A DNA stretch of 64,000 bases from the IMG/VR virus record IMGVR_UViG_3300010883_025067, positions 1 to 64,000 of that record. The stretch is one strand, 5' to 3'. The DNA comes from a virus. Positions within the stretch are counted from its first letter, which is position 1; the number at the start of each line of letters is the position of its first letter. This document shows positions 6,153-63,727 of this stretch, in pieces. A program made the translations under genes and the position numbers. Below the pieces are notes generated by a model. The model was not told the DNA's origin, did not search any database, and was given only the letters and a program-made list of their open reading frames with translations.

Positions 6153-7187
6153 TTGTCTGATTGTTACAGTGTGTTAGGTGTTGGCAAGAGTGCAACACAG
6201 GATGAGATCAAAAAAGCTTATAGGGAATTAGCTTTAAAGTATCATCCTGATAGAAATTCAGATAATTCAGATTCAGAAGTAAAGTTCAAAGAAGTGTCTG
6301 AGGCGTACGAGACGCTATCTGATCCTGAGAAAAGAAAGCAATATGATCTGGGAGGCACTCAAATGTTTTCAACATTTTCAGGTGATCCTTCTGAAATATT
6401 TGAAAGTTTTTTTAAAGATTTTGGATTTGAGACATTCTTTAGAGGTCATAGACAACCAGATATCGGACCTCAAATAGGTGAGGATGTCGAAATATTAGTA
6501 AACATTTCTTTGGAATCAGCATTTTCGGGCACTGAAAAGCAAATAACCTATAATAGTCTGATCATATGTGAACAGTGCACCGGAAAAGGTGTTCAAAATA
6601 CGTCTGATGTTCAAGATTGTCCACATTGTGATGGCTCTGGCAAGATTCATCAGAAAGCTGCATTCTTAAATATATCAATGACATGCGCACACTGCCAGGG
6701 ATCTGGTAGTCGCATTAAGAATCCGTGCGGTGTATGTCATGGGCTGGGAAGAGTGCAAGAGTTACGGGTGATAAAGATTCCAATTCCTATAGGAATTATG
6801 AGTGGAGAGAGAATAAGGATTCAGAATCTTGGTAATCATCACCCAGTATCGAATAATCCCGGTGATCTGTATGTCAGGGTTGATGTTATTCCTCATAACA
6901 AGTTTGAGAGAGAGATGAATGACATACACAGCCGTAAGTTTATATCATACCCAACTGCTGTTTTAGGAGGGACTGTTAGTGTTGAGACACTAGCAGGTGA
7001 TGTTTCTCTTAATGTGCCCGCCGGCACACAACATGGCACAGTATTTAAGTTATCCGGGAAAGGAATGAAGAGAGAGGGAGTCATGGGTAACCAAATGGTT
7101 CACCTCTGCATAGAAGTACCTGTCGAGGTAACTGAGAAGGAGAGAGACCTGATTTTGAATTTGAAAAAAATTCAAAAAGAACAATAA
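6153..7187 (+). CDS. dnaJ: Chaperone DnaJ
   Basis: A 344-residue full-length type A DnaJ from a TTG start with AGGGGTAG before it. In order: J domain (1-68) with HPD in KYHPDRN; a short Phe/Gly linker; a zinc-binding domain with four CxxCxGxG repeats ([32 protein letters not shown], residues 136-200); and the C-terminal substrate-binding domains. It delivers clients to DnaK. The Gly/Phe region is shorter than in E. coli DnaJ (376 residues). dnaK follows after 62 bases. No grpE is seen in the window. Confidence 0.95.
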
Positions 7188-7249: not shown

Positions 7250-9127
7250 ATGAATAAAGTAATTGGAATTGATCTTGGCACAACAAACTCTTGTGTCGCG
7301 CTGATGGAGGGCGATTCGCCCAAAGTTTTAACAAATGCAGAGGGAAGTAGAACAACACCTTCAATTGTTGCATACACACAAGATGGTGAAAGAATTGTCG
7401 GCGAGGCAGCTCGCCGCCAGGCCATCACAAATCCTGAAAGGACAGTCTACTCTGTGAAGAGATTTATGGGAATGAAGACAGCTGACGTCAAAAAAGAGAT
7501 TGACAGAGTTCCTTACACAGTTGTGAAAGGAAAGTCAGGAATCTGCAAAATAAAAATTAACAATAAGTCTCACACACCACAGGAAATTAGTGCACAAATT
7601 TTAGCCAAGCTTAAAAAGTCAGCTGAGGTCTACTTGGGACATGAGGTAAAAGAAGCTGTAGTTACAGTTCCTGCGTATTTCAATGATGCACAACGCCAAG
7701 CAACAAAGGATGCAGGGAAGATTGCAGGGCTCGAAGTTAAGAGAATTATTAATGAACCTACAGCGGCTGCACTCGCGTATGGGCTTGACAAGAAGCAAGA
7801 GCAGAAGGTTGCTGTTTTTGACTTGGGCGGCGGTACTTTTGATATATCAATCCTTGATATAGCAGAAGGTGTTGTTGAAGTGTTAAGCACTAATGGTGAT
7901 ACACATCTTGGAGGTGATGATTTTGATCAAGTTGTTATTGACTGGTTAGTTGCCAAATTTAAAGATGACAGTGGTGTCGATATAGCTGGTGATAAAATGG
8001 TTATACAGAGACTTCGTGATGCAGCTGAAAAGGCAAAAATTGAGCTTTCAAGCACACAAAAAACTGATATAAATCTTCCGTTTTTGACTGCAGATTCAAC
8101 AGGACCAAAACACTTACAGGTGACATTGCTTCGCTCCACATTTGAACAGATGATTGATAAGACCGTGAAGCGAACAATGGTCCCAGTTAAAAATGCGCTA
8201 AAGGATGCAGGCCTGGCAGCAAGTGACATCGACGAGATACTCTTGGTGGGCGGTTCAACGAGAACACCCATGGTTAGACAGACCGTAGAGAAGTTTTTTG
8301 GAAAATCTGCAAATAGTTCAGTTAACCCTGATGAAGTGGTTGCACTAGGCGCTGCTGTCCAGGGTGGTGTATTTAGTGGAGATGTCACAGATGTGCTTCT
8401 GCTAGATGTTACACCACTTTCTTTAGGAATAGAAACTTTAGGTGGAGTGATGACTCATTTGATTGAGAGAAATACAACAATTCCGTGTTCTAAGAGTGAA
8501 ACATTCAGCACAGCTGCAGATGGTCAAAGCTCTGTTGATATTCATGTTCTGCAAGGAGAGAGACAGTTTGCAAAGGACAATAAGCCGCTTGGAAATTTTA
8601 GGCTTGATGGGCTACCTCCAGCACCAAGGGGAATACCACAGATTGAGGTAACTTTTGATATTGATGCAAATGGAATCGTTAGTGTGTCTGCAAAGGACAC
8701 AGCTACGAACAAGGCACAGTCAATTAGAATTGAGGATAGTGCCTCTCTATCTGATGAGGATATTAAGGAGATCATAAAAGATGCATCTTCTTACGAGGAG
8801 GATGATAAGAAGCGCCTCACAGAGATACAGGATAGGAATAAGCTAGAAACACTGTCCTATCAGGCAGCAAATTTTCTTCGAGAGCACGAGATCACAGACA
8901 TGACAAAAGAAGAGCTAGAGAGTGCTCTCAATAATGGAAGATCAGCTCTTGAGGGTGATGAACACCAAGCAGTTTCTGATGCGCTGATAGAGCTTGAGGC
9001 TAGCTTGATGATAGCTGGAAAGGAAATTTATGATACTGCAAACAACACACAGGAGGTCGACCAAGAAACTGACTTCACCGCAGATACAGTTGAAGCAGAA
9101 CACGCAGAAGATCACAGTAGCGTGTAA
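7250..9127 (+). CDS. dnaK: Chaperone DnaK (Hsp70)
   Basis: A 625-residue protein, close to the usual 638, with AAGGAGA before the ATG. The ATPase domain starts [10 protein letters not shown] and has FDLGGGTFD and the LVGGSTRTP motif. The interdomain linker is [14 protein letters not shown], which is very well conserved. The substrate-binding beta domain and helical lid follow. The end is acidic and lacks the EEVKD-type tail. It would fold phage proteins or remodel complexes with the adjacent DnaJ. Confidence 0.97.
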
Positions 9128-34585: not shown

Positions 34586-36196
34586 ATGATGCAAAATAGC
34601 TTTAAGATTGTTAGGTTTGATATTGATGCCAGAGAGGATCTGCTACGAGGAGTTAATATTTTAGCAGATGCTGTAAGAATAACAATGGGACCTCGTGGTC
34701 GAAATGTTGTGATTGAGCAGCCGGGACAACATCCAATTCTAACCAAGGATGGTGTTACAGTTGCAAGGGCAGTTAATCTTAGAGATTCTTTTTCAAATCT
34801 AGGCGTTCAAATGATTAAGGAGGCTGCATCACGTACTGCTGATGTTGCCGGAGATGGCACAACAACAGCAACTGTGCTATCACAGGCAATTTATGCTGAA
34901 GGTTTAAAGATGCTTGCCGCTGGCTACTCTGCATCAATTATAAAAAAAGGAATAGACTTTGCAGTTCACCAGGTCATTGAAAACTTAAAGAATATCTCTA
35001 TTCCCGCTGCGGGTGATAATGAGATCAGGCAGATTGCAACAATTTCTGCAAACGGAGAAAAAGAGATAGGTGATCTAATATGCAAGGCAATTGAGTCAGT
35101 TGGAAAAGATGGTGTTGTGACAGTTGAGGAGGCCAAGGGATTCAATAGTAGCCTAACAATCGTTGAGGGAATGCAAGTTGAAAGAGGATACCTTTCTCCT
35201 TATTTTGTAACCAACCAGGACAAGATGACAGTAGAGCTTAACGATCCGTATATTCTTCTTTGCAACAAAAAGATAGACAGCATGAAGGAGATAACATTGT
35301 TACTAGAAAAGGTTCTGAATGAACAGCGTAGCTTACTTATTGTTGCAGATGACGTCGATGGAGATGCACTTCAAGGTCTTGTAGTTAATAAAATGAAAGG
35401 GTCACTTAGGATTTGTGCTATCCGTGCTCCAGGGTTTGGTGAATCTCGCGTAAGCATGTTGCAGGACTTAGCTGTAACATTGAATGGAAGGGTATTTACT
35501 GCAGTGTCTGGAGAATCGCTAGAAGGAGTAGAGCTTAAAGATCTTGGTGCATGTAAGAAGGTGATAATAGGAAGAGGTACTTCCGTTTTCATAGGTGGGT
35601 TAGGATCACAAGAAGCAATCAGCGCAAGAGTTCTTGAATTGCAAAGTCAGATGGAGTCTGACAATGCTGATGATGCTGAGGTTGATGCATTGCGACTTAG
35701 AATCTCAAAGCTAAGTGGTGGTGTTGCAATTTTACGCGTGGGCGGTGCAACAGAGTCTGAGTTGCGAGAAAGAAAGGATAGAGTGGATGATGCTCTTAGT
35801 GCAACTCGAGCAGCGATGCAGGAAGGAATTGTACCTGGAGGCGGCGTTGCCCTAGTCAGAGCGTCTGAATTCAAGCTAGACAGATCAGAGAAGCTTGATT
35901 ATGAGGTTGGAACTAATGTGGTTAAAAATGCGTGTCAAGCACCGTTACGACAGATAGTGGAAAATTCAGGTGGCACACCTGATCTCGTGCTGGCAAAGAT
36001 CAAAAGAATGAAGACAAATCACGGATATAACGCACTGACTGATGAATACGGTGATATGCTTGTCATGGGAATCATCGATCCTCTTAAGGTTGTTAGAGCA
36101 GCACTTGAAAATGCAGCATCTGCTGCAGGCATGATGCTAACTGTTGGATGTGCAATGATTGATGACATAAGTGAAGAACAGGGTAACGATTTCTAG
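34586..36196 (+). CDS. groEL: Chaperonin GroEL (Hsp60)
   Basis: A 536-residue group I chaperonin subunit. Equatorial and ATP-site motifs are present: [25 protein letters not shown], a catalytic Asp in [14 protein letters not shown], and [12 protein letters not shown]. The Gly-Gly-Met tail of bacterial GroEL is missing and the protein ends in EEQGNDF. No groES gene is in the window. It could fold capsid proteins with a host or phage co-chaperonin or alone, as the single-ring phage EL chaperonin does. Confidence 0.95.
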
Positions 36197-36853: not shown

Positions 36854-36874
36854 TACGTGTAAACTTTGCTAATG

Positions 36875-36885
36875 TGTAGTAATAT
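36875..36885 (+). promoter_or_regulatory. Putative phage promoter (TGTAGTAATAT)
   Basis: Member of the TGTRGTAnnAT set, 27 bases before the next ATG. Confidence 0.35.
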
Positions 36886-37137: not shown

Positions 37138-37258
37138 TTTTTAGCCTATGGGCCTTTTCACATGTCTGTGTGTGTCTATATTACCATAGTCAAATGACGT
37201 GCAAATAAAAAATAAATAGCGTAAAATAAGATTATCCAACCAAAGAACAGGAACCATA

Positions 37259-38116
37259 ATGTCACAATCACTTGATTCATATTTTAAAGATGTTTCTACA
37301 ACAAATCTTCTTACACGTGAGCAGGAGGTAACTCTCTCACAAAGAATTGAAAAGGGAGATCAGGAAGCAAGAAGAATCATGATCGAGTCCAATTTACGGC
37401 TTGCCATCAGTATTGCTAAAAAATATTACAGAAGCGGATGCAGCATTGAGGATCTGATTCAAGAGTCAAATATCGGACTGATGAAGGCAGTGGAAAAGTT
37501 TGACTGGCGCAGGGGATTTAAGTTCAGTACATACGCTAGCTGGTGGATTAAACAATCTGTTTGTCGTCACATTGGAACAAGTAGAAATACTGTCAAAGTT
37601 CCTGCGCATACAGCATCACTAGCCTGGAAGATTCAAACTGTCTCGAAGGAATATGAGAAAGATCTAGACCAAAAACCGAGCATCACTGAGTTGTCTGATA
37701 TCTTAGGTGTATCTGAGAATATGATCAATGCCAGTCTTGCATCAATCAAGTTTCAGAATATGATTTCTATTGACGGAACAATTGGAAATAAGGATGGTAA
37801 TCGCTCTATTTCTGAAGTTGTCGCTGATTTTAACCAAGTTGATGTTGATGGTGAAATTGACAAAGAAAAGATGCTGCTTGTCGTACGTGACTGCTTACAA
37901 AAGCTCAGTTTGCGTGAGGAGCAAATTCTTCGCTTACGTTTTGGAATTTCAGAGAACTTTAGTGACACAAGTGATTTTGATCTGACAAAATCTGAAGTTA
38001 GAGAAATTTCAAAAAAAGCTAGAGCAATTTCAAAAGAAGCTAGAGCAATTTCAAAAGAAGCTAGAGCAATTTCAAAAAAAGGAGAGAAAGTAAATGTCGA
38101 TGCCAAAGGGATTTAA
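37259..38116 (+). CDS. Sigma-70 family factor with abnormal, repeat-bearing region 4
   Basis: A 285-residue sigma factor. Region 1.2 is LTREQEVTLSQRIEKGDQEA. Region 2 is intact (NLRLAISIAKKYY, IEDLIQESNIGLMKAVEKFD, FSTYASWWIKQSV), which binds core RNA polymerase and the -10 element. Region 3 and 4.1 follow (KLSLREEQILRLRFGIS). Region 4.2 is not normal: its first HTH helix is about five residues short, a recognition-helix remnant (LTKSEVREISKKAR) remains, and then four 7-residue repeats (RAISKEA) replace the rest. -35 recognition is therefore doubtful. A separate HTH gene overlaps its end. Confidence 0.9.
   Translation: MSQSLDSYFKDVSTTNLLTREQEVTLSQRIEKGDQEARRIMIESNLRLAISIAKKYYRSGCSIEDLIQESNIGLMKAVEKFDWRRGFKFSTYASWWIKQSVCRHIGTSRNTVKVPAHTASLAWKIQTVSKEYEKDLDQKPSITELSDILGVSENMINASLASIKFQNMISIDGTIGNKDGNRSISEVVADFNQVDVDGEIDKEKMLLVVRDCLQKLSLREEQILRLRFGISENFSDTSDFDLTKSEVREISKKARAISKEARAISKEARAISKKGEKVNVDAKGI
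38000..38083 (+). repeat. Four 21-bp tandem repeats inside the sigma gene
   Basis: Units AGAGCAATTTCAAAAGAAGCT and near-copies at 38000, 38021, 38042 and 38063; two are identical. They encode heptads of the RAISKEA type. Confidence 0.9.
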
Positions 38117-38378
38117 GACAACACATGGATATGCAACAGTCAGGGCCAATGAAAGCGGCTTGGGTTATCGTGAGATAGCAGAGCACATGACAGAGAAAGG
38201 TGATAAGATGAATCACTCTACAGCTAGAAATATTTTTCTTTCAGCAATGTCTAAATTTGTATCAAACACCTGCTCGCTGTATGATGTTCAACCAACCAGA
38301 GAGGATATCACCCGTATTTCTGCAGACCCAAGATTCCAGTCAGCAATCCTAGATATGATCAAGGACATGGATGCTTGA
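38094..38378 (+). CDS. Small helix-turn-helix protein, sigma region 4.2-like
   Basis: A 94-residue protein with GGAGAG 7 bases before the ATG, overlapping the sigma stop by 23 bases in another frame. Residues 20-55 (GLGYREIAEHMTEKGDKMNH, STARNIFLSAMSKF) form a HTH like that of sigma region 4.2, with a longer turn. A C-terminal helical part (ISADPRFQSAILDMI) follows. It could supply the DNA contact missing from the sigma factor. HTH call by pattern. Confidence 0.65.
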   Translation: MSMPKGFKTTHGYATVRANESGLGYREIAEHMTEKGDKMNHSTARNIFLSAMSKFVSNTCSLYDVQPTREDITRISADPRFQSAILDMIKDMDA

Positions 38379-40477: not shown

Positions 40478-40527
40478 CATTACCACAGCACTCTGTGATG
40501 TCTTAGTTTCGTGCAACATACCAGGGC

Positions 40528-40539
40528 TTGTGGTATTAT
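40528..40539 (+). promoter_or_regulatory. Putative phage promoter (TTGTGGTATTAT)
   Basis: One base different from the element at 25663; 19 bases before the next GTG start. Confidence 0.5.
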
Positions 40540-53263: not shown

Positions 53264-53832
53264 GGCGTGATTATTTGAGCAATGCCCGCTTCAAGAGCTG
53301 ATTGACTATAGCCTCGTAGTATCTGCTTTATAACCATGTCCTCTGTTATAAAGAAGAATGTGGGCCATCCTGTTATGTTCCATCCAGTTGTAGAGGAGTA
53401 GTCTATCATATTTCTGCTTCCTGCTAGAACATGTGAATCTTCGATAACAAACAAATCTGCCCAATATGCACAATCATCAGATGTCGCAGGCTCACCTTCT
53501 GCTGTTTCAATGAGCACAGTTAGATATTCAAGATTCTCTGACGCATACTTTGCCTTCACCTGATCTACCTTAGATGCAGCATCCATACATGGGCCACACC
53601 ACATCACGCTGAAGTCTAGAACAATTGGCTGTTTGTAGAAGTCGTAAAGAGAGACGTCATTTCCATGCTGATCAACAAGTGTAAAATTGCAAGGATGATC
53701 TTCGATGTTTTGTGAGCATTCTTCCCACGGATATGGATTTTCTTGAACCTGACTGTCATCGCTTTTATCGAGACGAGGTGTGCATGCATTACATGCAGAT
53801 GTGAGAAAGAGAAAAAATAGAGACTTATACAT
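53260..53832 (-). CDS. Thioredoxin-like (TlpA-type) lipoprotein
   Basis: A 190-residue protein. The signal peptide (SLFFLFLTSAC) has a lipobox, and the thioredoxin fold has an active site VMWCGPCMDAA and the cis-Pro region GWPTFFFI. It would reduce or oxidise disulfides in the envelope. Its ATG shares a base with the stop of the VWA/ASH lipoprotein, so the two are co-translated; that protein is Cys-containing and might be its client. Confidence 0.85.
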   Translation of the reverse strand: MYKSLFFLFLTSACNACTPRLDKSDDSQVQENPYPWEECSQNIEDHPCNFTLVDQHGNDVSLYDFYKQPIVLDFSVMWCGPCMDAASKVDQVKAKYASENLEYLTVLIETAEGEPATSDDCAYWADLFVIEDSHVLAGSRNMIDYSSTTGWNITGWPTFFFITEDMVIKQILRGYSQSALEAGIAQIITP

Positions 53833-55421
53833 TATTCACAGTTTCCTAATATTGCGTATTCAACTTCTATTGTGCTATTCATTGCTGGAGGAGAGCTAAA
53901 GATAATTGAATTAGAGGTGATGCTGTAACTCCAGCTAGCTGATGAATATCCATTTACAGTTACAATAATTGTCTCTTCAATGGGAAAGTCTGTGAGCTGG
54001 AACGAACTCTTTGCCATTGATTCTCTGGCAAGTGTGTCCATTTGTGCACCCCAGTCAACTGCACAAATGGACATGAAGGTTCCACTTAAAGCTTGTACGA
54101 CTTCGTAATACCCACCACCAAACTGAGCATACATACCATTTGAATTGCATCCTGATGGAAAATCACCTGCTACAGCATGTGCAACAATTTGTTCAGTTGA
54201 AGTTTTTAGGCTTTGGAGGTGATTAGCATAATCTTGAGGAAGCATTGTCGAATATCTGCTAGAGGCATCAGTTTCATCTGAGACATAGATAATTACGAGT
54301 TTTGCATCCGATCGCAGAAAAGAGCTGCCAGGTCCAGCATCTGCCCCTGACTGTGTTGACTCATAAGACTCCCACAAGCCTCTCTCTAAACCACTTCCAG
54401 AGACACCAATGCTGTTGATGATATTTGTAACGGTTCCGATAGGGTCAGCATGATTGCTATCAATAATCCCTCCGACAAAATTTTCATTATCAGTTGTAAT
54501 AAATGCGAGTTGATAGTCCACACCTGATGTAGCAAAGACATTAATGAAAGAGCTAAAGTTGTTTGCCAGATTTGTCTGGTGTCTGTACATCGAGCATGAA
54601 TTATCAATGACAAATAGAATATCAGACTTTGATTCACCTGTTTGTTCGAATGATTCACTTACGATTGCTGCATACTTTCCTAGTGCGACTTGATCAGCAC
54701 TTGCAGTAGGTGAAACAGGATCACTCGATGAAACTTCAACATATGAAGAGTCATCCACTAGATCAGTTGGTATGTATTCAATAATCACGTCTATGCTGCT
54801 GCTTGGAGGAATGATCCAGGGAAGGCTTCCGTGTATGCTCTGGTTATCATTGAAATTAAAGTCAACTGGCAGTGTTGTGAAAAATTCTACGTCGTCGACA
54901 TGTAGATCAGCATCACCAACATTTGCAATGTTGACATTGATTTTTTCATCACAACCGACATCCACTTCACCAAAGTCATAATACTCAGGAGTTATTTCTA
55001 TGATGGGTGCATTTCCTGCACCATTTAGTGTCACCACTACTAGAGGACTATCTGGATCATTTGATTCAATAAAGATCCTATCTGTGTCTGTTGAGTATGT
55101 TATGGGTGTGTAAGCTATCTCAATGCTTGTGGCCTCACCTGCCTCTAGGGAGGATTCATCGGGTGGGATAAGTGTAAAAACAGATCTGCCTGATCTTAGG
55201 TAGATATCGTTAAGATCTAACGTATCAGTTCCTACATTGGAAACAATGATTTCACTAATATTTGTTTCAAATCCAGAGTGTAGTGACCCAAAATCAATTG
55301 ATCCAGGAGAGACGTGAATGTCTGGGATCATATCAATCTTCGGATTTAGTTCATAATCTGAGCAGCCGGTCAACGCTACTAACATTGTAAAAATTACGCA
55401 AGATCGTGAAGTATATGACAT
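53832..55421 (-). CDS. Lipoprotein with two ASH-like beta domains and a VWA domain
   Basis: ATG 55421; 529 residues. A signal peptide with lipobox (MLVALTGC) is followed by two Ig-like domains of the ASH/choice-of-anchor type (SPGSIDFGSLHSGFETN, then TPEYYDFGEVDVGCDEKIN), and a VWA domain with the metal site DILFVIDNSCSMYRHQ and KLVIIYVSDETDAS. The C-terminus resembles that of the lipoprotein at 43172. The architecture is known from Myxococcota surface proteins. It may bind a cell-surface target. Confidence 0.8.
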   Translation of the reverse strand: MSYTSRSCVIFTMLVALTGCSDYELNPKIDMIPDIHVSPGSIDFGSLHSGFETNISEIIVSNVGTDTLDLNDIYLRSGRSVFTLIPPDESSLEAGEATSIEIAYTPITYSTDTDRIFIESNDPDSPLVVVTLNGAGNAPIIEITPEYYDFGEVDVGCDEKINVNIANVGDADLHVDDVEFFTTLPVDFNFNDNQSIHGSLPWIIPPSSSIDVIIEYIPTDLVDDSSYVEVSSSDPVSPTASADQVALGKYAAIVSESFEQTGESKSDILFVIDNSCSMYRHQTNLANNFSSFINVFATSGVDYQLAFITTDNENFVGGIIDSNHADPIGTVTNIINSIGVSGSGLERGLWESYESTQSGADAGPGSSFLRSDAKLVIIYVSDETDASSRYSTMLPQDYANHLQSLKTSTEQIVAHAVAGDFPSGCNSNGMYAQFGGGYYEVVQALSGTFMSICAVDWGAQMDTLARESMAKSSFQLTDFPIEETIIVTVNGYSSASWSYSITSNSIIFSSPPAMNSTIEVEYAILGNCE

Positions 55422-55453
55422 CAATAATACCTATTCATCACGACATATCAAGC

Positions 55454-59479: not shown

Positions 59480-60133
59480 ATGAAAATGAGAGAAAAATTG
59501 TTGTCACAGGTGAGACGCTTACTAAGTGAGATTGCAACACAGGCATTTCCCAGTGCGCTACCTGTTGACATCAAGGACATAACAAAAGTCATCCAGCAGC
59601 TCCGACAGGAGCAGATGTCCAAGGAATCGGAGATTAGTGCAGCACAGAAAGAACCTGATCCTAATGTCCGCTCAACCAGGGTGGCACAACTACAAGGAGA
59701 GCTAGGTGATATCATAGCTCAAAAGAGCCAGCTTGTTCAGATGCAGAAAAAATCCACTACGTCAGAGGCAATCAGTCAGATAAGTTCTAATCTTAAGATT
59801 TCAAGAGTAGACCTTATGGAGCTTGTTAGAGAGCAACTTGATGATGATCAAGCTAAGCCCGTCGCCCGTCAGCAACACAGGAATAGATCTAGAGAAAGAA
59901 TGAAAATTACCAAGGCCCATCTCAGACAGATAATTAATGAGGAGATCAATCGTGTCCTTGATGATGATATTGATGAAGATACACAGGGCCTCAGGGCAAA
60001 GCTTGGCGGAGATGATCCTCTGTCTGTGGCTGGAGGAGATACTGAAGATGATCCGCTTGTCGATGAAGAAGCACTTACACTACCCACTGGAGACCGCGGA
60101 GGTTGGGAATACATGACCGGCGGTGAACACTAG
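59480..60133 (+). CDS. Virion-type protein with three copies of the tag motif and an amber end
   Basis: A 217-residue protein with tag-like helices at residues 1-19 (REKLLSQVRRLLSEIA), about 105-120 (KISRVDLMELVREQLDD) and about 140-158 (KITKAHLRQIINEEINRVL). A coiled coil lies between, and an acidic C-terminus ends in WEYMTGGEH. Translation ends at TAG 60131, but the frame stays open for 43 more codons to 60265, which overlaps the next ATG. The ATG at 59900 could also be an internal start. Confidence 0.7.
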   Translation: MKMREKLLSQVRRLLSEIATQAFPSALPVDIKDITKVIQQLRQEQMSKESEISAAQKEPDPNVRSTRVAQLQGELGDIIAQKSQLVQMQKKSTTSEAISQISSNLKISRVDLMELVREQLDDDQAKPVARQQHRNRSRERMKITKAHLRQIINEEINRVLDDDIDEDTQGLRAKLGGDDPLSVAGGDTEDDPLVDEEALTLPTGDRGGWEYMTGGEH

Positions 60134-60136
60134 GTC

Positions 60137-60208
60137 TCATCTAGCACCCAGCTTTCATCTAGCACCCAGCTTTCATCTAGCACCCAGCTTTCATCTAGCA
60201 CCCAGCAC
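60137..60208 (+). repeat. Four 18-bp tandem repeats
   Basis: TCATCTAGCACCCAGCTT three times and a fourth copy ending AC. In the frame of the upstream gene it encodes SSSTQL units after the amber codon. Confidence 0.95.
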
Positions 60209-60735: not shown

Positions 60736-60755
60736 TCGTGCAAATGTATGTCATC

Positions 60756-60766
60756 TTGTGTATAAT
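60756..60766 (+). promoter_or_regulatory. Putative promoter (TTGTGTATAAT)
   Basis: Consensus TATAAT behind TTGTG, 17 bases before the TTG start at 60784. Confidence 0.5.
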
Positions 60767-60783: not shown

Positions 60784-61050
60784 TTGGCAGCAAGAATTCC
60801 TAAGAAGCTCAAGAAGCAGGCAAAACAAGGCATGCGACAAGCTGTCGATATTGGAAAAGCAAAGAAGCTCAAGAGAACCTGGTCGTTTTGTCTCGGTGAT
60901 CTTGTTCAGTACAGAGATCTTTGGGGGCTAATCATTGCACAGCCTACTCCTGATAGCTACACTGTTCTGACTACATCGGGCACATATCAGGTAAGGGCAG
61001 CTTCTTTGAGCAGGATTCAGCAGCTAGCACGTGCAAACACAGGTACTTAG
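60784..61050 (+). CDS. Basic SH3-like small protein
   Basis: An 88-residue protein from TTG with GGAGG upstream. Very basic N-terminus (IPKKLKKQAKQGMRQAV), then a barrel (FCLGDLVQYRDLWGLIIAQP). Nucleic-acid binding is possible. Confidence 0.6.
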   Translation: MAARIPKKLKKQAKQGMRQAVDIGKAKKLKRTWSFCLGDLVQYRDLWGLIIAQPTPDSYTVLTTSGTYQVRAASLSRIQQLARANTGT

Positions 61051-61091
61051 AGTTATAATAAACTGTAAACATACAGCACAGGAAACAAATC

Positions 61092-62162
61092 GTGGACATC
61101 AATACTTTTACAGCAGTCGTACCGAAGTTGCCAGCAGGTCAGGCAATTCTTCTCCGTGGGCCTCACGGTATCGGCAAGTCTCAACTCTTTCGTCAAATTT
61201 CTGAAAGTGTTGTTCTTGAGGATGGTTCCGTTGGAATTCCGCTTATCGACCGTCGGCTTGCTCAAATGACTGAGGGAGATATTATTGGACTGCCTGAACT
61301 TGTGGATGGTGTGACTCGATTTGCTCCTGTTGAATGGTTGTTGAGAGCTTGTCGTGAGCCGGTTGCGTTGATGCTTGATGAGATCAATCGAGCAACACCT
61401 GAGGTGATGCAGTGTGCATTCCAGCTTGTCCTGGACCGAGAATTGAATGGACATGTTTTGCACCCTGAGACTAGGATCTACTGTGCTGTGAATGCTTCTT
61501 CTGACTACCAGGTCAATGAGATGGATCCCGCACTTCTCGATCGATTCTGGGTCGTTGACCTTGACGTCAATGAGAGGGACTGGATTGATTGGGCAAAGAG
61601 TAGTGACATTGATCCTGTTATCGTTGAGTTCATTCGAGATAATCCTTGTCACCTTCGTCACAAGGGTACAATTGAGCCGGGCAAGGTGTACCCATCTCCT
61701 CGTTCTTATGATAGGCTTGATGTATCACTTAAGTCAGCCTCCTGGAACCCGGTTGATTTGGCTGGGCGTGACATTCCTGACGGATTCTACGCTATGTCAC
61801 TGGGCTTTCTTGGAACAGAGGCAGCAATCACATTTCGTGACTATGTAAAGAATTACGACATGCAGATCTCTGCAGAGGATATCTTGGAACGATGGGATGA
61901 GAACACTGAGATGGTGTTGAAGATGGGTGTTGATAGACACAATGGCCTGATTGAAAAGCTTGTTGACAATAGCCGTGATAATGAGTGGAGTGTTTCACAG
62001 ACCAAGAACGCTTGTGACTTCATTCGAGAGTTGTCTGATGAACTTCTTGTTAGCTTCTTCAACTCTATCATGGATACTAAAAACGTGCCAAACATCAGAT
62101 CGGTTCACAAGTTTATTGGAATGGCTGTTGTTGAAGCAGTAACAGCTGCTCAAAAGGCGTGA
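61092..62162 (+). CDS. MoxR-type AAA+ ATPase
   Basis: A 356-residue AAA+ protein from GTG. Walker A is LLRGPHGIGKSQ, Walker B is ALMLDEINRATPE, sensor 1 is AVNASSDYQVN and the arginine-finger region is MDPALLDRFWVVDL. MoxR ATPases act as chaperones with VWA partners; the next but one gene is a VWA/metallopeptidase-like protein. Possible role: remodelling or activating that partner. Confidence 0.88.
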   Translation: MDINTFTAVVPKLPAGQAILLRGPHGIGKSQLFRQISESVVLEDGSVGIPLIDRRLAQMTEGDIIGLPELVDGVTRFAPVEWLLRACREPVALMLDEINRATPEVMQCAFQLVLDRELNGHVLHPETRIYCAVNASSDYQVNEMDPALLDRFWVVDLDVNERDWIDWAKSSDIDPVIVEFIRDNPCHLRHKGTIEPGKVYPSPRSYDRLDVSLKSASWNPVDLAGRDIPDGFYAMSLGFLGTEAAITFRDYVKNYDMQISAEDILERWDENTEMVLKMGVDRHNGLIEKLVDNSRDNEWSVSQTKNACDFIRELSDELLVSFFNSIMDTKNVPNIRSVHKFIGMAVVEAVTAAQKA

Positions 62163-62371
62163 ATAGATACAGAGGAAGCAAGAGGTCACCTCAAAAGGGT
62201 GACCTCACAGTTATCATCCTAGAGGGAAATCGATACGATGGCAGACTTGGATTGATCATCATCCCAGGCCCAGGTGAAAAAGTAGATTTGATAGTATCTC
62301 CACCACACGGGAAAAGCCCTAGAAGCTTAGTGGTATCATCACAGCATTTGAAATACGTGCAATCAGCATAG
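62159..62371 (+). CDS. Hypothetical SH3-like small protein
   Basis: A 70-residue protein from GTG overlapping the ATPase stop (KGDLTVIILEGNRYDGRLGL). Basic start, barrel-like. Unrecognised. Confidence 0.6.
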   Translation: MNRYRGSKRSPQKGDLTVIILEGNRYDGRLGLIIIPGPGEKVDLIVSPPHGKSPRSLVVSSQHLKYVQSA

Positions 62372-62374
62372 TAG

Positions 62375-62387
62375 TGTAGTAAAATAT
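62375..62387 (+). promoter_or_regulatory. Putative phage promoter (TGTAGTAAAATAT)
   Basis: Member of the TGTRGTAnnAT set, 20 bases before the next ATG. Confidence 0.3.
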
Positions 62388-62407
62388 ATCTATAAAGGTG
62401 GAATCAT

Positions 62408-63727
62408 ATGTCACAGGATAAGGGAACATCAGTTGATCTTCCAACTGGTCAGCTTTCTTCTAAAGAGGAGGCAGCTAGGTTTAATATTGAACCGCATCTC
62501 GTTAATCTAATGCTTCACGAACCGTTTTATAGCCACGTTCTCAGAAGGGTTGCAAAGGTTCGCAGCACAGCATTGCCAACAGCGGGTGTGACAGTTAGAG
62601 ATGGTGAGTTCACAATGCTGTGGAATCCCCGCTTTCTTGCAGCGCTTGCTTCACTTCATGTCAGAGGATTGCTCAAGCATGAGTGTCTTCATCTTGTTTT
62701 CAAGCATTGTACGGGTAGAAGGCAGGATCCTCATGTTCTTTGGAACTGGGCGACTGATCTTGCGATTAATTCACTTATTCCAGAGAAAGAGTTGCCTGAA
62801 GGTGGCCTTTGTCCGGGACAGGCACTTGATCTGAGTAAGGTTGAGGATCCGAAGCAACTTGAAAAGTGGAAGAAGGTGTCTGAGCTTATTGAATCTTTTA
62901 CTCTTGGATTGGCAGCAGAGAAGTACATGGCATTGCTTCGACAGGATCCTGATGTGAGTAAGACCATTGAGCAACAGGGTGACCCAACAGGTCAAGGTGG
63001 CGAAGGTGGTGAAGGTGGCTCTCCTGGTCCCACTGATGATCACACCGGCTGGGGAGAGCTCACTGATGAAGAAAAGCAGATCGCTGAAGGGAAGATTCGC
63101 CAGGCAGTGAGTGAGGCTGTGAAGAAATGTGATCGAACTGGTCAGTGGGGATCACTATCAGGAGAGGCTCGTGAGTCGTTGCGTGCCTTGTGCAATAACG
63201 CTGTTAACTGGAAAAAGGTGCTCCATAACTTCTGTGGTCGAAGCCAGCGCGCTAACCGCTCCAGAACATTGAAGAAGATCAATCGTAAGTATCCGTATAT
63301 TCACCCAGGAACCCGCAGGGGACACAGTGCTTCAGTGGTTGTCTATATTGATCAATCAGGATCCGTCGGTAGCGATGAGATCAACATGTTTTTCGGTGCT
63401 TTGAATCAGCTTGGACGAATCACATCGTTCAGTGTTTTCTTCTTTGATACCGATGTTGATAAGAAGAATCAGATCAAGTGGCGACGCGGACAGAAGGTGG
63501 AAGCCAGTCGGACACGATCTGGTGGAACTTGTTTCTCAGCAGTTGAGAATCACTTGAAGAAGCACGGTTCAGAATTTGATGGTCACATCATTCTAACTGA
63601 TGGTCAGGCTGGTGACCCTGGACCCTCTATTAAGCGTCGTTGCTGGGTCCTGCTGCCTGGCTGTGATCTGTACTTCAAGCCTCACCCGAATGATGTTGTT
63701 GTGAAGATGGATAGCTTGCTAAGGTAA
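62408..63727 (+). CDS. VWA domain protein with metallopeptidase-like N-terminal domain (DUF2201-like)
   Basis: A 439-residue protein. Residues 40-150 hold GLLKHECLHLVFKHC, a zinc-type HExxH, and NWATDLAIN, as in the DUF2201 metallopeptidase-like domain. A Gly/Pro linker follows (residues 195-215). Residues 310-439 are a VWA domain with metal site YIDQSGSVGSDE and HIILTDGQAGD. Such proteins pair with MoxR ATPases. A terminator ends the unit. Confidence 0.85.
   Translation: MSQDKGTSVDLPTGQLSSKEEAARFNIEPHLVNLMLHEPFYSHVLRRVAKVRSTALPTAGVTVRDGEFTMLWNPRFLAALASLHVRGLLKHECLHLVFKHCTGRRQDPHVLWNWATDLAINSLIPEKELPEGGLCPGQALDLSKVEDPKQLEKWKKVSELIESFTLGLAAEKYMALLRQDPDVSKTIEQQGDPTGQGGEGGEGGSPGPTDDHTGWGELTDEEKQIAEGKIRQAVSEAVKKCDRTGQWGSLSGEARESLRALCNNAVNWKKVLHNFCGRSQRANRSRTLKKINRKYPYIHPGTRRGHSASVVVYIDQSGSVGSDEINMFFGALNQLGRITSFSVFFFDTDVDKKNQIKWRRGQKVEASRTRSGGTCFSAVENHLKKHGSEFDGHIILTDGQAGDPGPSIKRRCWVLLPGCDLYFKPHPNDVVVKMDSLLR

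Follow-up and report, generated by a model that had tools for sequence, protein, structure and literature searches.

A small protein encoded by many uncultured phages probably supplies a part that is missing from their sigma factor and reads an unusual start signal, as far as sequence comparison can tell. A sigma factor tells RNA polymerase where to start, and its region 4.2 normally reads the -35 element. To our knowledge, sigma-70 factors almost always carry the readers of the -10 and -35 elements on one chain. The stretch of DNA analysed here (the window, 64,000 nucleotides, part of the 75,869-bp virus record IMGVR_UViG_3300010883_025067) holds a sigma gene followed by a gene for a 94-aa protein. 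With a probability of roughly 0.6, these two products form a two-subunit sigma of a large phage that acts on the host polymerase, in which the 94-aa subunit would replace region 4.2 and read a GTGYAA -35 element.

In such an arrangement the 285-aa sigma, with regions 1.2-4.1, would be the part that binds the polymerase core and opens the -10 element, as expected from its family. The 94-aa protein would sit beside region 4.1 and the beta flap in place of 4.2 and read GTG(T/C)AA, 17-18 bp upstream of TATAAT, so that the two would form a complex that contacts DNA. A phage-encoded multi-subunit polymerase was rejected: 13 phage records, 200-320 kb in length, gave no RpoB match, and the host polymerase is therefore the likely partner. 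The original prediction offered either a two-subunit sigma or a sigma working on -10 elements only. Comparison of phages supports the two-subunit form (co-occurrence in 94/95 cases, one natural fusion, no paired sigma with 4.2). The -10-only form is disfavoured, since a GTGYAA -35, set 17-18 bp from the -10, is strongly enriched in phages carrying the pair.

The sigma gene and its C-terminal tail

The sigma-70-family gene (37259-38116, plus strand, the same coordinates as first described; ORF call, Pfam, PHROG and family alignment) encodes regions 1.2, 2, 3 and 4.1 and lacks a complete 4.2. Its best PHROG is phrog_351 (RNA polymerase sigma factor, E=7.9e-60). Pfam regions 1.2 (E=7.6e-11) and 2 (E=4.6e-21) are both above the Pfam cut-off. 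Region 3 scores 15.2 bits, under its 25.3-bit cut-off, and region 4 scores 21.5 bits, under its 24.1-bit cut-off, with no complete 4.2 HTH. The tail that follows RLRFG (37946-38113, plus strand; alignment and tail comparison) is made up of an acidic loop, the 4.2 remnant FDLTKSEVREISKKAR, a set of repeats and an out-of-frame extension. In the family alignment FDLTKSEVREISKKAR lies against the RpoD 4.2 recognition helix FDVTRERIRQIEAKAL and is degenerate but recognisable. About 5 residues are missing from the first 4.2 helix, which agrees with the earlier description of that helix as shortened. As judged from this alignment, region 4.2 of the window sigma is decayed, with 4.1 and the remnant kept.

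The four 21-bp tandem repeats in the tail (ISK[KE]ARA; 37995-38081, plus strand) are the top-scoring array of the window in Tandem Repeats Finder (period 21, 4.1 copies, score 146). In the nearest relatives, L001 and L002 (89% identical), the sigma ends ...FNLTGSEAKLVSQKEGK and the HTH gene comes directly after the stop. Alignment with L001 shows that the window carries a 64-bp insertion consisting of three extra repeats and one base. Because of this odd base, the window frame moves past the old sigma stop, giving the overlap with the HTH gene. The comparison of repeat number proposed in the original prediction, run against L001, thus finds the three extra repeats to be specific to the window record. 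The array described there is real but is a private insertion and not what replaces 4.2. Since the repeats are absent from so close a relative, they are not part of the mechanism, and a role for them as the replacement is ruled out.

The small HTH-type protein and its sigma partner

The proposed second subunit is encoded at 38094-38378 (plus strand; ORF call, alignment and AlphaFold2), in a different frame from the sigma ORF and overlapping it by 23 bp. A GGAGAG ribosome-binding site (38081-38086, plus strand; sequence) lies 7 bases ahead of its ATG. Both the overlap and the separate GGAGAG site had been noted originally, and both were found again. In the AlphaFold2 model the N-terminal arm (MSMPKGxK...GYATV) is disordered and is followed by helices at 25-34, 41-62, 69-76 and 79-93; the helical core is confident (block pLDDT 96-97). 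Y13, M39, H41, A44, R45 and N46 are invariant in the alignment of the protein (A4, n=70 sequences), with the M-H--ARN pattern in the long helix 41-62, and the HTH-like helix pair is the best-conserved part of the protein.

Similarity to known domains is harder to find. The window protein has no Pfam match, and Sigma70_r4_2 is matched by only 2 of 33 of its relatives, with a best E of 0.06. When the family is aligned to region 4 with hhalign the result is not significant (P=0.23), although the register matches the recognition helix. On that result the idea that its sequence is simply a stretch of 4.2 was rejected. The model gives no fold match better than E=3 in Foldseek against the PDB. Likeness to Sigma70_r4 and Sigma70_r4_2 lies in the HTH-like helix pair and, in one relative (L057), in an HTH domain that occupies the place of 4.2. 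The small protein differs in its longer turn, its extra N-terminal arm and its two C-terminal helices, as well as in lacking any significant match by Pfam, profile or fold. Its pattern is that of an HTH-like protein, and it is possibly unrelated to 4.2, its sequence being compatible with either a far-diverged 4.2 or an unrelated replacement.

The structure prediction of the complex that had been suggested was run as a single-chain pseudo-fusion, with the TAA of L001 read as Gly. It reached a pTM of 0.53 and placed the HTH domain without confidence. Foldseek with this model returned SigA, RpoD and RpoS, some of the alignments covering 290-350 columns, which by length alone is enough to reach the HTH domain.

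Homologues of the small protein were gathered from IMG/VR, for which the sigma, the HTH protein and alignments of the latter served as queries, and from GTDB genomes. Among the 95 distinct HTH proteins, 94 go with a sigma that ends 5-56 residues past region 4.1. The exception, L212, is on a 38.6-kb fragment where no sigma was found. In 93/95 the HTH protein is encoded by a gene separate from the truncated sigma, mostly adjacent to it (92 by script and L216 by eye). In these split pairs the truncated sigma is upstream of the HTH gene, usually directly. Most gaps are between -14 and +38 bp, the commonest being -4 (26/92), and a 4-bp overlap is typical of coupled translation. Six pairs have 488-1001 bp, holding one or two genes, between sigma and HTH gene, and one pair has 160 bp. 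In two clade 2 phages the truncated sigma is separated from the HTH gene by an ORF (L198:2351-2977 and L209:2288-2980) whose end resembles that of homing endonucleases (GKGFIWRFEK, GGFIWRYK). The frame relation of the two genes varies, with gaps of 0, 1, 2, 3, -1, -4, -14 and more. Because of this variation the two genes must give separate products, and a programmed frameshift or readthrough joining them was ruled out.

L057 carries a natural fusion (L057:4266-5339, 357 aa), in which sigma through 4.1 is followed by a linker and then the HTH domain where 4.2 belongs. It is a single case in one assembled bin, on a 157.9-kb contig of a Flavobacteriales genome bin, and no further copies, fused or split, were found in 398 genomes of the order of that bin. 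The two parts of the proposed sigma occur together in 94/95 distinct cases, one of which is the fused relative. Relatives that keep a full region 4.2 had been named as evidence against the original prediction; every sigma paired with the HTH protein is without 4.2. Conversely, phage sigmas that keep 4.2 (L013-L016, loci found with the L057 query) have no HTH motif in those loci, and the HTH family profile, which detected both known carriers in a check, had no match in 30 records of sigmas with intact 4.2. On a tree of regions 1.2-4.1 the labels truncated, intact and fused need 2 changes, compared with a mean of about 25 when shuffled. The truncated sigmas fall into two clades, clade 1 with the window and another that includes L056 and L057. 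No match was obtained with tblastn of four HTH proteins against 50,697 phage records, and therefore no representative of the system was found there.

The GTGYAA promoter class

Enrichment of 6-8-mers in the window did not reveal a promoter motif, which appeared only after anchoring on the -10. Anchoring on TATNAT upstream of genes in pair-carrying phages led to a -35 other than TTGACA. GTG[TC]AA-N17-TANNNT occurs in 46/293 upstream regions of the window's clade, compared with 0.33 in shuffles; the same regions show no enrichment of TTGAC. The window alone has 5 GTGYAA-N17 matches (0.0 expected). Control phages with an intact sigma have 0 (1.13 expected) and are instead enriched in TTGA[CT] (26 vs 11).

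Motif scanning predicts a promoter for the sigma operon at 37199-37227 (plus strand), with -35 GTGCAA (37199-37204), a 17-bp spacer and -10 TAAAAT (37222-37227). Another, GTGTAA-N17-TAATAT (36857-36885, plus strand; motif scan), precedes the 74-aa gene ahead of sigma. The sigma-gene promoter is seen in 24 phages and the one before the preceding gene keeps its position in 22, both counts including the window. Since its promoter is of the GTGYAA class, the sigma operon may control itself. The 65 motif matches with spacers of 17-19 divide into 24 in front of the sigma gene, 22 in front of the preceding gene and 19 elsewhere; with 46/65 at the sigma gene or its neighbour, the motif counts in part reflect orthologous promoters. 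A weight matrix trained solely on sigma-gene promoters was used to avoid this effect. At score 12 it found 11 matches before other genes in the loci (0.5 expected), 3 in the window (0.0 expected) and 6 in stretches of four other genomes chosen regardless of sigma (0.0 expected); control phages had 0 (1.6 expected). A scan open to every 5-mer and spacing returned TGTAA and TGCAA at 17 in the held-out regions and the window taken together (12 vs 0.4; 5 vs 0.04).

Motif and matrix scans also predict promoters in the window at 40511-40539 (GTGCAA-N17-TATTAT, plus strand, gene 40559) and at 60738-60766 (GTGCAA-N17-TATAAT, plus strand, gene 60784). The latter gene belongs to a cluster (60784-63727) encoding a MoxR-type AAA ATPase and a DUF2201/VWA-type protein, a pair that also follows a promoter of this class in G418 and G411. 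Genes found behind the motif include the sigma operon, the MoxR-AAA/VWA pair, a head-maturation-type Clp protease and a lipoprotein-like gene. A perfect 18-bp repeat (60137-60206, 3.9 copies) lies just after ORF 59480-60133. The window also has a lipoprotein-like ORF (53832-55424, minus strand) with HYDIN-like Ig and VWA-like parts by sequence, which may be unusual phage cargo and a hint at the host. DnaK- and GroEL-like chaperones are encoded at 7250-9127 and 34586-36196, with a DnaJ-like gene at 6153.

The motif varies with clade. A subclade within L038-L050 (L038, L039, L044, L046-L048 and L050) has an MKHSAARN helix and, at the sigma promoter, GTGCAA throughout, with an 18-bp spacer. Two MKHSAARN phages have the GTGYAA motif at sigma and none elsewhere. 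From clade to clade, the fourth base of the -35 may change together with the helix letters. Clade 2 shares the MNHATARN helix but GTGYAA promoters are absent from it, so that this helix alone does not set the -35; the open scan for a common clade 2 promoter gave only weak candidates. Motif-bearing phages span 31-57% G+C, a hint of varied hosts. We infer that the GTGYAA promoters are used by this sigma and not by some other factor.

Known split systems and competing readings

In the SigO-RsoA system of Bacillus subtilis, sigma-4 and sigma-2 functions are on different proteins (PMC10028694). It shares with the phage pair, whose partnership is deduced from the genes, the principle that two separate proteins make one working sigma. 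As a precedent it is fair in that principle but not in the position of the cut: the bacterial split is between sigma-4 and sigma-2, and that of the phage pair falls inside region 4, between 4.1 and 4.2. The late sigma gp55 of T4 and its coactivator gp33 have also been described as a split sigma (PMC2988020), and here too a phage sigma without full region 4 has a small partner. A T4-like reading, with the small protein on the beta flap like gp33, reading no DNA sequence, and the sigma using the -10 only, would fit the small partner's lack of sigma similarity in hhalign. T4 gp33 is not structurally related to sigma-R4 and reads no DNA sequence (PMC2988020, PMC7892883, PMC7408454). The reading is nonetheless improbable. 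T4 late promoters are without a -35 (PMC7408454), in contrast to the enriched -35 at fixed spacing in the phages with the pair (GTGYAA at 17-18 bp, if these promoters belong to this sigma). Moreover, gp55 consists of a sigma-R2 homology domain and a helix-loop-helix (PMC7892883), whereas the window sigma keeps 1.2-4.1, and the most conserved part of its small partner is an HTH-like helix pair. SPO1 is similar by description, in that two of its proteins act in late transcription.

The SPO1 proteins are gp33 and gp34, both serving late transcription. Of these, gp34 has been named as the late sigma factor (PMC9429907). A search of the openly available literature turned up no account of a phage sigma that is split within region 4.

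GTGYAA could also mark early promoters read by the host polymerase or another phage factor, with the pair serving another, unrecognised promoter set. Phage sigma genes are often expressed from early promoters, clade 2 has the pair without the motif, and the annotated genes downstream of it are not mainly structural. Against these points, GTGYAA is unlike the host-type TTGACA, which is the form shown by intact-sigma phages, and it spans phages of very different G+C content; the explanation is unlikely, if one to be taken seriously. It is rather doubtful that the HTH protein acts in the manner of T4 MotA, as an activator in its own right at the GTGYAA -35, touching polymerase or sigma, for which the loss of 4.2 made room. 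Its extra C-terminal helices, its conserved N-terminal arm and the lack of significant similarity to region 4 in hhalign and Foldseek would suit an activator, but L057 has the HTH domain in the 4.2 position, 4.2 is consistently lost wherever the HTH gene is present, and the constant spacer of 17-18 bp matches that of a sigma -35. Simple gene decay with an incidental HTH neighbour, for which the lineage-specific insertion in the window sigma tail might speak, is barely credible and is refuted comparatively by the same truncation point and partner in 94/95 distinct cases from very divergent phages.

The two-subunit sigma may extend to a general statement, offered tentatively: a large group of uncultured phages could have replaced the -35 domain of sigma-70 by a separate, possibly unrelated subunit with a new GTGYAA specificity, one whose presence or absence could work as a switch. 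As a ready promoter class, GTGYAA-N17-TATAAT can be put to the test and used to trace gene regulons of uncultured phages. If the two-subunit reading is true, this natural split in region 4, which many phages keep and one shows as a fusion, would illustrate how the exchange of a single small subunit can alter promoter specificity.
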